This document shows positions 19,913-28,903 of a stretch of 35,950 bases of DNA, one piece after another. Origin of the DNA: Candidatus Microgenomates bacterium. GTDB taxonomy: Bacteria; Patescibacteriota; Microgenomatia; UBA1406; GWC2-37-13. Position 1 is the first letter of the stretch, and the number at the start of each line of letters is the position of its first letter. The stretch lies in assembly GCA_023245215.1 (NCBI GenBank), contig JAHFKS010000009.1, positions 1-35,950 on the forward strand. The letters run 5' to 3'. The translations under genes and the position numbers were made by a program. The notes under the pieces were generated by a model. It was not told the DNA's origin and ran no database searches. It worked only from the letters and a program-made list of their open reading frames with translations.

Positions 19913-22189
19913 TTATATAACGATGACCTCTTCTTTCAATTCTATATCAAACTTGTCTTTAACTTTTGACTTAATAATGTTCAAAAGCTTTATCAAATCT
20001 TCGCTCTTGCCTTTGCCGCGGTTAATAATAAAATTGGCATGGATTGGAGAAACATAATAATCTCCGACAGAATAATTCTTGAGCCCGGCTTTATCTATCA
20101 AATAACCAGCGGAAATTTTGCCTGGATTCCGAAAAAAACACCCGCTGGACGCTATTCCGAACGGCTGGGTTTTTTTCCTATAAGCAAGGGCCCAGTCGGC
20201 CTTTTCCTTAATCGTTGCCGGGTCTTCTTTTTTTAACTTAAAAACCGCTTCGAGAATAATTTCTCCCGTCTTCTGGAGTATGGAATAATCATAGCCGAAT
20301 TTAAAATAATTTCGGTTTACTTTTTTTACTCTGCCTTCTGCATCCATTAGATAAGCATAAATAAGATAGTCGCCAAAATAAACCATCGGCTTTGTCCATT
20401 TGGAATTCATATAAATTGCCCCGCCGACAGTACCGGGCAGACCCTGGTGGTATTCAAAACCGCTCCAGCCGTTTTGAATTGACTTAGCAATTAAAAGGGA
20501 AACGGGATAGCCCGAAGAGACGGAAACAGTCGCATAATCTTTATTTTCCTCAATGACTTTCAGATCAATATAATTATTTTTTAACACCAAACCCGGCAAT
20601 GTTTTTTTTGTGATCGCCAAATTGCTGCCTCCTCCAAGCATCAGTAAAGGTGTATGATTTTCCAATGAATATTTTTTGGCGCTCAATAGTTCTTCCCTAT
20701 TTTTTGCCTCGACAAAATTTTCTGCTTTCACTTTAGTCCTCAAGGTCAAAAAATGCGACAGGTCTTTGTTTTTCTCTATTTTTAAATTTTTCCCGCCGAT
20801 GACGGGATTAATTTCATTTATCATTTTTATTAGTTTATCTTTTAGCTTATAAACATTCCCCGCCCCCATAGTAAAAACCACGTCGCCTTTTCGCAGGATT
20901 TTTTCCAGTTGCTTAATCAAGAGTGATTCCGATTCAACATAAATAAGATTTTCCGTTCCTTTAACGATATCTTTTGAATCGACTTTAAACTGGCTGCCTT
21001 TTTCCCTGGCTGAAGCAAAGATCGGCATGACTAAACCAACGTCAGCCGAAGACAAGCTTTCTCTGAATTCTTTCAGCAAAAAGTTTGTCCTCGAAAAAGT
21101 ATGAGGCTGGAAAATGACAATGATTCTTTTCTGCTTGAACCTGTCTTTTGCCGCATTGATTGTCGCCTGAATTTCAGCCGGATGGTGGGCGTAGTCGTCA
21201 AACAGATAACTGCCTTCTTTTACGTAAACCCTTTCAAACCTTCTTTCTGCGCCTTTGAATCCCAAGACTGCTTTCCTAATCTTTTCCGCTTTAAAACCCA
21301 GATGAAGCAACTGGACAATTACGGAAGAAGCATTGGCAATATTATGTTTTCCGTAAAGGGAGATTTCAAACCGGCCGACTCTCTTGATTTCAAATTTTGA
21401 TCCGGTTTCATTAGTCGACCAATTGAGTATCTGATAATCAGCATTGTCTGAAAATCCGTAGCCAAAAGCTTTGCCTGCTTTTATATTTTTGGAGAATAAC
21501 CAAAGATTGGCATCATCAACATTCAGGATTAATTTTTTTTTGCCGAAAAATTTATAGAAGGCGGTTTTTGTTTCTTCAATGTTTTTGTAGACGTCCGGGT
21601 GGTCAAAGTCAATGTTCGTACAGATTATCCAGTCGGGGTCCAGTTTAAAAAACTTCGGAGTCTTGTCCTCTGGCGGATTGACGCCGTATTCATCAGCTTC
21701 AACGACAAAATACTTATTGCTTTGGTAGTCGCTTCCCTGGTTTCCGGTAAAAAACGGCACGCCGACTGTATATGAAGGACTGGCATTCAACCTTTTCAGG
21801 GCGTAGCTCAATAATGAAGAAGTAGTGGTTTTACCGTGGCAGCCGCTGACGGCAATTTTTGTTTCAAAGCCGGACATCAATTCCCCCAATAGTTGAGCCT
21901 GGGAAATAATTCGGATTTTTCGATTGCGGGCTTCAACTATTAAAGGGTTATTCAAGCCTGTATGGGCAGCTGAATAAACAATTAAGTCGACATCTTTTGG
22001 AAGTTTTTTAGGATTAAAACCTGCCAACCAGCTGATTTTGTTATCTTTGAGGAGCTTGTCCGTGATAAATACTTCCTCGACATCCGAGCCTCCGACTTTT
22101 TTACCCATCTTCTTTAAAACCACCGCCAAATTTGCCATGGCGACGCCTTTTATTCCGACAAAAAATATGTTTTTAGCTTGTTTTAGCAT
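19913..22189 (-). CDS. MurC-MurB fusion: UDP-MurNAc:L-Ala ligase plus UDP-enolpyruvyl-GlcNAc reductase
   Basis: A 758-aa two-domain protein. Residues 1 to about 460 are MurC, with the N-terminal FVGIKGVAMANLAVVL, the ATP loop GCHGKTTT (116-123), EADEYG, TNIDFDHPD, GKHNIANASS and DDYAHHPAEI. Residues about 465-758 are MurB, with the FAD loop LMLGGGSNLAI (517-527), GLPGTVGGAIYMN and ASSGCFFRNPG (680-690). It would catalyse two successive steps, MurB then MurC, after MurA. The proton-donor position normally held by Ser appears to be Cys684. The ligase loop has Cys where Thr is usual. No frameshift is seen at the junction. A -10 box precedes it, and murA follows one base later. Confidence 0.93.
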   Translation of the reverse strand: MLKQAKNIFFVGIKGVAMANLAVVLKKMGKKVGGSDVEEVFITDKLLKDNKISWLAGFNPKKLPKDVDLIVYSAAHTGLNNPLIVEARNRKIRIISQAQLLGELMSGFETKIAVSGCHGKTTTSSLLSYALKRLNASPSYTVGVPFFTGNQGSDYQSNKYFVVEADEYGVNPPEDKTPKFFKLDPDWIICTNIDFDHPDVYKNIEETKTAFYKFFGKKKLILNVDDANLWLFSKNIKAGKAFGYGFSDNADYQILNWSTNETGSKFEIKRVGRFEISLYGKHNIANASSVIVQLLHLGFKAEKIRKAVLGFKGAERRFERVYVKEGSYLFDDYAHHPAEIQATINAAKDRFKQKRIIVIFQPHTFSRTNFLLKEFRESLSSADVGLVMPIFASAREKGSQFKVDSKDIVKGTENLIYVESESLLIKQLEKILRKGDVVFTMGAGNVYKLKDKLIKMINEINPVIGGKNLKIEKNKDLSHFLTLRTKVKAENFVEAKNREELLSAKKYSLENHTPLLMLGGGSNLAITKKTLPGLVLKNNYIDLKVIEENKDYATVSVSSGYPVSLLIAKSIQNGWSGFEYHQGLPGTVGGAIYMNSKWTKPMVYFGDYLIYAYLMDAEGRVKKVNRNYFKFGYDYSILQKTGEIILEAVFKLKKEDPATIKEKADWALAYRKKTQPFGIASSGCFFRNPGKISAGYLIDKAGLKNYSVGDYYVSPIHANFIINRGKGKSEDLIKLLNIIKSKVKDKFDIELKEEVIVI
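19958..19974. repeat. Short dispersed repeat, copy in murC-murB (second copy 23584-23600)
   Basis: The 17-mer TTTAACTTTTGACTTAA at 19958-19974 occurs identically at 23584-23600 in murE. Thirteen of its bases (ACTTTTGACTTAA) also occur at 2768-2780 in rplU. The murE copy is read in a different frame (LSQKLKG) from the murC-murB copy (IKSKVKD), so shared protein sequence does not explain it. I see no further full copies. Confidence 0.5.
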
Positions 22190-26039: not shown

Positions 26040-26848
26040 ATTATTATAGTTCTCAACTTGGCGCTCCGTTCAAACGACCGTAAACCTCTAATTGGTTTCT
26101 TGTCTAAAAGTTTCAGCTGATTATTTCTGGTAAAATTTTTAACGATTCTGTCTTCAAGCGAATGAAAAGTAACGACAACGATTTTTCCTTCTTTTTTTAA
26201 AATCTTAACCGCTCCTGCCAAACCCTGCCTTAGATTTTCGAATTCTTGGTTTACTTCAATCCTTAAAGCCTGAAAAATTCTCGCATAGATAGTCTTACTT
26301 TGAAAACCGGCGGCGCGGTCTATGGCTTTGAGCAAATCCCCAACCGTATCCATTCTTCTTGACGCCTTTACTTCTATAGCAATCTGCTTAGATTTAATCT
26401 CTTCAGAGTTCGCTGCAAATATCTGGTAAAGCTCTTCAACTGACGACCTTTTTACTAAATCTCTTGCTGTAACTTCATTTTCCAAATCCATCCTCATATC
26501 CAACGGGTCGTCAAGCAATTTATAAGAAAATCCCCGGCCAGGTTGATTTATCTGGCCCATTGACAGACCCAAATCAAAAACAACTCCGTCAACCGGGAAA
26601 AAACTGTTTTCTTTGGCGATCTTTTCTATTTCGGCAAAATTTCCTTGAACCAGCTTCAAACCCGTTAACCCGTTAACTTTAAAGTTTTCCAACTGTCTCT
26701 TATCTAAATCTATCGCCAAAACTTTTCCCCCTCTTTTTAAAATCTCTTTTGTATAGCTTCCTTCACCGTATGTCGAATCTATATAAAGGCCGTCTTTTTT
26801 GACGTCTAACCTTTCAATCGCTTGTTGTAAAAGTACTGGTGTGTGCAT
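26036..26848 (-). CDS. rsmH: 16S rRNA (cytosine-1402-N4) methyltransferase RsmH
   Basis: A 270-aa SAM-dependent methyltransferase that modifies C1402 in the ribosomal P site. It begins MHTPVLLQQAIERL, the canonical RsmH start. The SAM loop is YIDSTYGEGSYTKEIL, and VVFDLGLSMGQIN, GRGFSYKLLDDPLDMRMD, ARIFQALRIEVNQE and VVTFHSLEDRIVK are all diagnostic. I use ATG 26848, which overlaps the end of mraZ by 35 bp. A frame from 26902 would add 18 residues not found in the family. It lies in its usual position after mraZ. Confidence 0.96.
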   Translation of the reverse strand: MHTPVLLQQAIERLDVKKDGLYIDSTYGEGSYTKEILKRGGKVLAIDLDKRQLENFKVNGLTGLKLVQGNFAEIEKIAKENSFFPVDGVVFDLGLSMGQINQPGRGFSYKLLDDPLDMRMDLENEVTARDLVKRSSVEELYQIFAANSEEIKSKQIAIEVKASRRMDTVGDLLKAIDRAAGFQSKTIYARIFQALRIEVNQEFENLRQGLAGAVKILKKEGKIVVVTFHSLEDRIVKNFTRNNQLKLLDKKPIRGLRSFERSAKLRTIII

Positions 26849-27221
26849 ATTTTTCCCATTTTTTTTGATTCCAAATTTCAAAATGATCCCCGACCCCGAC
26901 AATTGCTGCTTTATCGTTCAACCCGGAATAGCTTAAAAGATTTTTTGGAATTATAAACCTACCTTGGTCGTCAATTTCCAGATAAACAATTGCGGAAAAA
27001 AGAAATCTTTGTTTTTTTAAATTCTCTTTGTCTAGAAGAGAGCTTTGGAATAGATTTTTTGCTCTGTTTTCCCAATCTTCTTTGTCATAACCAGACAAAC
27101 AAAAATCAAATCCTTTTGTTAGAATAAAGGTATTGCCCTTGAGAAGTTCCCGTAGTCTTTTGGGCAAGACCAGGCGTCCAGGGGAAGTGAATGATAGTTG
27201 ATATTCACCAAAAAACACCAT
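26814..27221 (-). CDS. mraZ: Transcriptional regulator MraZ
   Basis: A 135-aa protein with two SpoVT/AbrB-like swapped-hairpin domains. The first has YQLSFTSPGRLVLPKRLREL and the second YLEIDDQGRFIIPKNLLSYS, both with the D/S-x-x-GR-x-x-x-P core. In other bacteria MraZ forms a ring and represses or activates the dcw operon by binding short G-rich repeats next to its own promoter. Such repeats with 10-bp spacing are present here and even include the start codon. It is the first gene of the minus-strand cluster. Its promoter is consensus-like, with the -10 box ending 8 nt before the ATG. Confidence 0.96.
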   Translation of the reverse strand: MVFFGEYQLSFTSPGRLVLPKRLRELLKGNTFILTKGFDFCLSGYDKEDWENRAKNLFQSSLLDKENLKKQRFLFSAIVYLEIDDQGRFIIPKNLLSYSGLNDKAAIVGVGDHFEIWNQKKWEKYAHTSTFTTSD

Positions 27222-27249
27222 ATAAAACCATTATTCACCAATTTAACCA
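27201..27249. promoter_or_regulatory. MraZ operator: four TGGTG/TGGTT repeats at exact 10-bp spacing plus a fifth at 9 bp
   Basis: On the plus strand CACCA ends at 27210, 27220 and 27240, and AACCA ends at 27230, so four repeats fall exactly 10 bp apart. A fifth ACCA ends at 27249, 9 bp on. Read on the mraZ strand these are TGGTG, TGGTT, TGGTG, TGGTG. Known MraZ boxes are TGGGN-type repeats spaced by 5 nt (10-bp period), so the geometry matches with a changed last G. The row covers the -10 box, the transcription start and the first codons of mraZ; the ATG itself is part of one repeat. It also lies within 75 bp of the divergent murJ start. Confidence 0.8.
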
Positions 27250-27258
27250 GGATGTCAA
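27230..27258 (-). promoter_or_regulatory. Promoter of mraZ and the dcw cluster
   Basis: A consensus -35 box TTGACA (minus strand 27258-27253) and a -10 box AATAAT (27235-27230) are 17 bp apart. The -10 box ends 8 nt before the ATG at 27221, implying a leaderless mraZ mRNA. The -10 box overlaps a TGGTG repeat, so MraZ binding would block RNA polymerase. Confidence 0.7.
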
Positions 27259-27274
27259 GGGGTAAAACATAACT

Positions 27275-28903
27275 ATGGAGCGACTGATCAAAACAACTTC
27301 GAATTTTATATTCTCAAAACAAAAGAGCATTTTTTCTTCGGCGATGCTCATCTCTTCAATGATAGTTTTGACCAGTCTTTCCGGTTTCCTCCGCTACAGA
27401 ATACTGGCCGGATACTTTGCCAAAGAACAGCTTGATATTTTTTTCGCTTCTTTCAGGATTCCGGACCTGATCTTTGAAATACTCATTACCGGCGCCCTGA
27501 CGACAACTTTTATACCCATATTTCTTAAGTACAAATCGAATAAGAATGACTTGAGTAATAATATCTCTTCGATAATTAACTTTATCCTGCTTTTTTTGAC
27601 TGTTTTTATTGTCGTGGCGTCGTTTTTCCTCGACAGGATTATTCCTTTTCTGACTCCCGGATACGGGCCGGACAAAATGGAAAAAATAGTTGTCTTCTCG
27701 CGGCTGCTTTTGGTCGGCCAGCTGCCTTTTTTCGTTTTGGGCAATTTTCTGACGGGAATAGGCCAGGCCAACAAAACCTTTTTTCTTTCCGCCCTGGCGC
27801 CTGTAGTCTATAACCTTTCCATCATCATCACTACGGTAGTCTTATATCAAAGCCTGTCTTTATCTGCGCCAATCTGGGGAGTGATAATCGGCGCAGTTCT
27901 TCTCTTTATAATCCAAATACCGCTCCTTTTTAATTCTGATTTCAATTACCGGTTTATCCTGAAAAAAACCCAAGGGCTGGTAGAATTCATCAGACTCGTT
28001 ATCCCAAGGGCTTTCACAATAATTGTCGCCCAGATTGATGCGACAATCGACTTAACTTTGGCGACTCTTTTGGGAAGCGGGGCTTACACCGTTTTTTATC
28101 TGGCCCAGCACCTCCAGCTCCTGCCCGTATCAGTCATCGGCATCGCCTTTGGCCAGGCTTCTCTGCCCTATTTGACGGAAATTTACCAGGAAAAGAAGAC
28201 CGAACAGTTCAAAAAAATCATCACTGATTCTCTCTTGAGCATTTTTTTTCTCACCATTCCCCTTGCTTTGTTTTTTATATTCGCAAGGACACCCCTGATC
28301 CGGCTATTCTTCGGCGGCCAGAAGTTTGACTGGGACGCTACAGTACAAACCGCCGTCACTCTTTCTTATTTTTCCCTGGCTCTGCCGTTCCACGCCGTCT
28401 ACTATCTTTTAACGCGCTGTTTTTATGCCATTATGGACAGCCGGACGCCTTTCTATATCGGTTTTATCTCGATTATTATAAATACGGCTTTGAGCCTTTT
28501 ATTTATTTTCTATTTCCACCTGCCCATCTGGTCTTTGGCGATTTCTTTTTCCGTATCAATGATTATTAACTCTACTTCTCTTTTTATAATTCTTTGGAAA
28601 AGGACTTCCGGCTTTAATCTCTTTTTTCTCACGGGCGAGCTTTCAAAAATGGCTTTTGCCGGGGGCATAGCCGCCATCGGCTCTTATTGGCTGATGAGAT
28701 TGCTTGACGGACTTATATTTGATACATCCTTCACTATGAATGTTTTCTTTCTCCTTGCCGTTACTTTTTCTGCTTTTATAGGCCTATACTTATTCATAGC
28801 CTGGACAATAAATGTCAGGGAAATTTACCTTGTCAGCAAGCTGATGTTGAAAGCGCAGGAGTACCAAAAAAAGATTACCGAACTTTATACTCATTATGAA
28901 TAA
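27275..28903 (+). CDS. murJ: Lipid II flippase MurJ
   Basis: A 542-aa polytopic membrane protein of the MOP superfamily (MviN/MurJ), about 14 helices, that moves lipid II to the outer face. Family features are SGFLRYRILAGYFA near the N-terminus (R residues of the central cavity), FFASFRIPDLIFEILITGAL, TPGYGPDKM, GVIIGAVLLFIIQIPLL and YFSLALPFHAVYYLLTRCFYA with MDSRTPFYIG. It is divergent from mraZ and shares the 53-bp intergenic region with the MraZ repeats, so co-regulation is possible. TAAAAC 6 nt before the ATG may be its -10 box. Its end overlaps the next gene by 8 bp. Confidence 0.95.
   Translation: MERLIKTTSNFIFSKQKSIFSSAMLISSMIVLTSLSGFLRYRILAGYFAKEQLDIFFASFRIPDLIFEILITGALTTTFIPIFLKYKSNKNDLSNNISSIINFILLFLTVFIVVASFFLDRIIPFLTPGYGPDKMEKIVVFSRLLLVGQLPFFVLGNFLTGIGQANKTFFLSALAPVVYNLSIIITTVVLYQSLSLSAPIWGVIIGAVLLFIIQIPLLFNSDFNYRFILKKTQGLVEFIRLVIPRAFTIIVAQIDATIDLTLATLLGSGAYTVFYLAQHLQLLPVSVIGIAFGQASLPYLTEIYQEKKTEQFKKIITDSLLSIFFLTIPLALFFIFARTPLIRLFFGGQKFDWDATVQTAVTLSYFSLALPFHAVYYLLTRCFYAIMDSRTPFYIGFISIIINTALSLLFIFYFHLPIWSLAISFSVSMIINSTSLFIILWKRTSGFNLFFLTGELSKMAFAGGIAAIGSYWLMRLLDGLIFDTSFTMNVFFLLAVTFSAFIGLYLFIAWTINVREIYLVSKLMLKAQEYQKKITELYTHYE

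Follow-up and report, generated by a model that had tools for sequence, protein, structure and literature searches.

A repeat row best read as an MraZ operator that reaches into the mraZ gene of Roizmanbacteria and their relatives

The mraZ locus, its promoter and the repeat row

The window analyzed here, a stretch of 35,950 nucleotides from Candidatus Microgenomates bacterium (assembly GCA_023245215.1, contig JAHFKS010000009.1), carries a dcw (division and cell-wall) gene cluster that begins with mraZ (Table 1). The nearest named relatives of the source are Candidatus Roizmanbacteria, and the order referred to below comprises Roizmanbacteria and their relatives. Following mraZ on the same strand are rsmH, a short ftsL-like gene, an ftsI-type transpeptidase gene, murE, murC-murB, murA, mraY, murD, ftsW, murG, ftsA, and ftsZ, all assigned by family matches except ftsL, which was assigned by position and size alone. 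MurC and MurB are fused in a single 758-aa frame (window 19913-22189, minus strand; TIGR01082 and TIGR00179). The second DXXXR motif of MraZ is present in the encoded protein (IDDQGR), while in the first the Asp is replaced by Thr or Ser throughout the order, with the Arg kept, and several sister-order proteins also lack this Asp. Membership in the MraZ family is based on the whole profile and not on the pair of motifs, and, as the Asp is missing order-wide, the way the protein reads DNA could differ. Recent structures of MraZ are PDB 9qlr, 9qlg, and 9sx6.

A promoter scan of positions 27000-27500 returned a lone sigma-70-type match, TTGACA-17-AATAAT, with 11 of 12 bases agreeing. The mraZ ATG (27221) lies 8 nt past the -10 element, which itself contains a stop codon in the mraZ frame; because no start codon occurs in that frame between this TAA and the ATG, the mraZ start codon must lie within the repeat row described below. 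With the promoter ending so close to the ATG, a leaderless mraZ mRNA is predicted, and the promoter spacing, conserved in the order, translates into a predicted leader of 0-2 nt. No Shine-Dalgarno sequence precedes mraZ, but one is present in just 2 of the 21 window genes, and a comparison of Shine-Dalgarno duplex energies between the order and its sister orders revealed no difference.

Leaderless starts seem common in the order. An ATG 5-10 nt past ideal promoters was detected in 31 of 53 cases among 20 genomes of the genus, in 38 of 52 among 20 other genomes of the order (6 of these 38 being near-identical copies within one genome), and in 20 of 49 among 20 sister-order genomes, where about 10 were expected in each set. 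A looser promoter-ATG pattern gave 12 matches in the window's own genome, several with long frames from the ATG, compared with 3 in reversed controls. By its promoter spacing the mraZ mRNA is probably leaderless, and these counts suggest that such mRNAs are widespread in Roizmanbacteria and their order. Six near-identical promoters were observed in one genome, G029 (for example at C2:85830-85869 and C4:67754-67793), with the sequence CCTATCCTATAATATTCTCATATG and each with an ATG 8 nt past TATAAT; they probably belong to a repeated gene family or element. Within the dcw cluster of the window, the minus-strand starts of murD (14370), murG (11156), and ileS (6971) have TATAAT 6-8 nt before the ATG, and transcription from such internal, leaderless promoters may therefore escape control by MraZ.

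The minus strand from 27250 to 27200 reads CCTGGTTAAATTGGTGAATAATGGTTTTATATGGTGTTTTTTGGTGAATATC. TGGTG or TGGTT begins here four times at three exact 10-bp steps, and a further TGGTT begins 9 bp from box 1. These are the letters on which the original prediction was built, and they were confirmed, as was the overlap of one repeat (box 3) with the ATG; the prediction had also placed the row over the -10 box, the transcription start, and the first codons, which is borne out by the promoter match and the box positions, the start site being a predicted one. Given the position of the -10 element, its last T belongs also to box 2. The pattern TGGTN6TGGTN6TGGTN6TGGT has a single mismatch-free match in the 819-kb genome, which is the mraZ locus. 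Counted against shuffled sequence, as had been proposed, the four-part pattern with up to three mismatches matched twice within the window (0.09 expected), a number reached in none of 100 shuffles. No second operator target was found elsewhere in this genome or in the related genomes searched.

Table 1. Features at the mraZ locus of the window. Counts give the number of the 61 distinct order sequences of exact geometry.
Feature	Position	Strand	Remarks
mraZ, 135 aa, first dcw gene	26814..27221	-	PF02381 8.4e-26; TIGR00242 102.6 bits (cut-off 98.35)
Box 4, TGGTG	27206..27210	-	codons 4-6 (TTT GGT GAA); TGG in 52/61
Box 3, TGGTG	27216..27220	-	made by ATG (27221-27219) and Val2 GTG; TGG in 48/61
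Predicted transcription start, A	27223	-	7th base past -10; 2-nt leader; A in 60/61
Box 2, TGGTT	27226..27230	-	T shared with -10; TGG in 52/61
-10 element, AATAAT	27230..27235	-	promoter scan; includes in-frame TAA (27233-27231) closing the mraZ frame upstream
Box 1, TGGTG	27236..27240	-	end of promoter spacer, untranscribed; TGG in 55/61
Fifth repeat of the original prediction, TGGTT	27245..27249	-	9 bp from box 1; out of phase, unconserved
-35 element of the mraZ promoter, TTGACA	27253..27258	-	promoter scan; TTGAC and 17-bp spacer conserved in the order
murJ	27275..28903	+	divergent; 53 bp between start codons; PF03023 3.9e-65

Conservation of the boxes and constraint on the coding DNA

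A strict pattern (-35, 17 bp, -10, 8 nt, and an ATG that is a mraZ start, with at most one mismatch) was detected in 62 of the 83 genomes of the order, and eleven additional sequences carried it with a 1-nt shift in geometry. Alignment of mraZ upstream regions from relatives had been put forward as a check on the row, and across the 61 distinct sequences with exact geometry the four boxes do recur at the same positions, with TGG at offsets -19, -9, +2, and +12 for boxes 1 to 4 (counts in Table 1). All four TGG boxes occur together in 33 of these sequences, and every other offset has TGG in 12 at most. Twenty of the 61 were obtained by a search that required the -35, AAT, ATG, TTY, GGN, and GAR, so that these letters are to some extent conserved by construction; the search pattern left box 1, the wobble bases, and the Gs of box 2 free. 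In family f2, which has a spacer 1 base longer, the boxes stay in step with the -10 element and not with the -35 element, and one subclade has no TGG in box 3, its genes starting with ATGCTT or ATGTTT.

The description of the operator as five-part, in contrast, had to be revised to four conserved boxes with at most a degenerate fifth. At the offset of the fifth copy as first written (-28), TGG is found in 2 of the 61 sequences, and this box was rejected. The neighboring offset that keeps the 10-bp phase (-29) has TGG in 12 and GG in 23 of the 61, compared with at most 6 at neighboring non-box offsets. This enrichment of GG makes a degenerate in-phase fifth box possible, and one may exist in the clade, with the window's own copy one base out of register.

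Expected codon usage at the start of mraZ was taken from the remaining codons of the gene together with those of the gene that follows. Val2 is encoded by GTG in 36 of 43 sequences (6.2 expected, 14%), Gly5 by GGT in 49 of 55 (15.7 expected), and Glu6 by GAA in 51 of 55 (38.2 expected). Probabilities calculated for such codon use assume independent genomes, an assumption that does not hold, and codon changes on the MraZ tree were therefore counted as a control: Gly5 has 2 changes versus 20-30 at other conserved Gly codons, and Val2 has 5 versus 23-25 at other conserved Val codons. Moreover, codon 4 specifies F, Y, L, I, S, or V, yet its third base is T in 50 of 55 sequences. The bases that are fixed maintain TGGTG at the 10-bp phase of box 1, which is untranscribed. 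Boxes 3 and 4 are coding, comprising the start codon and codons 4-6, yet to judge from this codon usage they are constrained as DNA.

Sister orders and a possible history of the start codon

In sister orders of the class, TGG is found 18, 28, 38, and 48 bases from the -35 element, at offsets identical to those in the window. Sister-order operators (L050, L054, L107-L112, and L132-L138) share the phase between the -35 element and the boxes with the window and have three to four boxes, but differ in that mraZ starts downstream of them, whereas the mraZ ATG of the window sits in box 3. Starts of mraZ in the sister orders accordingly lie behind the boxes, 53-102 nt from the -35 element as compared with 37 nt in the order (one automatic value of 113 stems from a misplaced -35, and at some loci the operator is still further upstream), and the boxes there sit in an untranslated leader ahead of mraZ.

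A start-in-operator pattern coinciding with a mraZ start was found in 17 of 21 genomes of the order, as against 0 of 163 from elsewhere in the class. A looser pattern, requiring three boxes of which box 3 contains an ATG, matched seven sister-order genomes as well. At L132-L138, the ATG in box 3 is at the same place but opens a frame of just 2-30 codons, such as MVINGEF-stop or MVKKGEII-stop, and mraZ starts downstream of the boxes; at this same place the mraZ of the order begins with MVFFGEY. A looser version of the search based on MFxG gave 22 matches, which lacked a row of boxes and were attributed to chance.

The simplest history would be that a leader deletion joined mraZ to box 3, and that the conserved Phe-Gly-Glu codons became box 4. 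In its full form, this scenario holds that the deletion fused mraZ to the box-3 ATG of an ancestral untranslated operator, whereby the first codons of the gene would be half of its own operator, its N-terminus would be held partly by the binding of its own product, and promoter, operator, and protein would be combined in one stretch throughout the order. We regard this full scenario as having an even chance of being correct.

Other sequences are conserved in some sister-order leaders. Between the operator and mraZ, five loci (L049, L116, L135, L136, and L137) contain a stretch resembling TCTGCCCAGAAAG, in some near GATCGGGACTTCG, which is possibly a leader RNA element. The leader conserved upstream of mraZ in L102-L106 (family f31) is of another type; it contains CAGCCTGCC and TCTGGACAGCAGG, and a TTGAC promoter is absent within 130 nt. 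A search against Rfam gave no match at the window locus or in the sister-order mraZ leaders, including those of the TCTGCCCAGAAAG type and of f31.

The proposed MraZ operator and known systems

An MraZ operator is the best reading of the repeat row, whose existence is confirmed; this reading was advanced in the original prediction and now has good support from the position, period, and conservation of the row and from its family context. Three points go beyond that prediction, namely the leaderless mRNA predicted here, the constraint on synonymous sites within mraZ, and the sister orders whose operator lies ahead of the gene. We consider it likely that the four boxes constitute an operator on one face of the helix, part of it coding, through which the dcw cluster represses itself. 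The boxes (approximately AAATGGYG with a TGG core) would be one turn apart on a single face, extending from where the promoter spacer ends across the -10 element and the predicted start of transcription to the start codon and codons 4-6. By analogy with known systems, MraZ, a ring-forming regulator, would most likely bind several boxes at once, and when bound would block RNA polymerase at the -10 element and the start site. A block of polymerase at the mraZ promoter would amount to repression of the dcw cluster by its own product. On a leaderless mRNA, as predicted here, coding sequence would make up the operator's downstream half and be held by operator and protein alike.

A smaller operator of boxes 1 and 2 alone, with boxes 3 and 4 a mere by-product of the conserved M-V-F-F-G-E start, would account for part of these data, since F-x-G-E is conserved in MraZ outside the order too and part of box 4 is therefore protein-driven. 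However, Val2 GTG and Gly5 GGT are fixed while other Gly and Val codons of mraZ vary freely, codon 4 keeps its final T irrespective of the residue, and in the sister orders boxes 3 and 4 have the same offsets in noncoding DNA, all of which make this alternative very unlikely. We give similarly little credence to the idea that the codon constraint reflects leaderless translation initiation, through start-region structure or ribosome contact, rather than DNA binding. Codon bias is common in start regions in general, and leaderless starts seem frequent in the order, but such bias is usually A/T-rich, and GTG at Val2 is a rare, G-rich choice in the opposite direction; the fixed codon bases furthermore extend the 10-bp phase of box 1, which is untranscribed. 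Although TGG is a common word, a chance run of such words in an AT-rich promoter is incompatible with the fixed offsets in 61 sequences and the uniqueness of the row in the genome; this origin is refuted by conservation, and its probability is negligible.

Control of the divergent murJ by the same operator would be an addition to the MraZ operator reading rather than an alternative to it. Shared control is possible by geometry, as the start codons are close enough (Table 1) for box 1 to coincide roughly with the -35 region that a leaderless murJ would have, and most members of the window's family carry murJ in divergent orientation, often at 36-105 bp. Nonetheless, the spacing between mraZ and murJ is not conserved among relatives (36 to about 1,000 bp), murJ was not found upstream in several family members (some with only ~500 bp of upstream sequence), and no murJ promoter passes the scan in the window. 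We therefore put this addition forward tentatively, as somewhat unlikely.

Few bacterial regulators are as conserved as MraZ, and the literature searched contained no paper on an MraZ operator from the Candidate Phyla Radiation. The four boxes provide a precise, testable site for a division regulator in nearly all-uncultured bacteria. The downstream half of the operator is visible from synonymous-site conservation alone, so that the sequence itself gives evidence of an intragenic DNA-binding site. The case also illustrates how a regulatory site can come to lie in coding sequence when a reduced genome loses mRNA leaders. Across this order of tiny, uncultured bacteria, the same letters seem to act as promoter, control switch, and protein code.

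The MraZ boxes of E. coli reportedly comprise three TGGGN repeats with 5-nt spacers that mediate autorepression. They resemble those of the window in their 10-bp period, TGG core, and location at the mraZ promoter, but are three in number, have TGGG, and precede a gene with an untranslated leader, whereas those of the window are four and run into the gene. Known MraZ sites form 10-bp rows over the -10 element and start site of the mraZ promoter (PMC7761207, PMC8475190, PMC5282649), and the window likewise has 10-bp direct repeats over the -10 element and predicted start, with a TGG core after an A-run and a box 1 that is usually TGGYG in the order. The operator of Mollicutes, (AAAGTGK N3) x3, shares with the window the 10-bp period, an A-run with a TG core, and a single site at the mraZ promoter, but has three boxes with a GTGK core in place of four with a TGG core (PMC5282649, PMC8475190). 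In Burkholderia cenocepacia, four 7-nt repeats with 3-nt spacers lie over the dcw transcription start, and binding of the fragment has been demonstrated; the four repeats, 10-bp period, and GTG core are as in the window, although that site was described in an intergenic promoter fragment, whereas the window's reaches the start codon and coding sequence (PMC7761207). The original prediction had noted that the motif ends in TG rather than GG, which holds true in the window and agrees with the usual box 1 of the order, but not as a novelty, because sister orders have TGGTG-type boxes and a GTG core has already been described (PMC7761207). Both the motif letters and the number of repeats are close to what is known, and what is new is that half of the operator falls within the beginning of a gene whose mRNA is probably leaderless.
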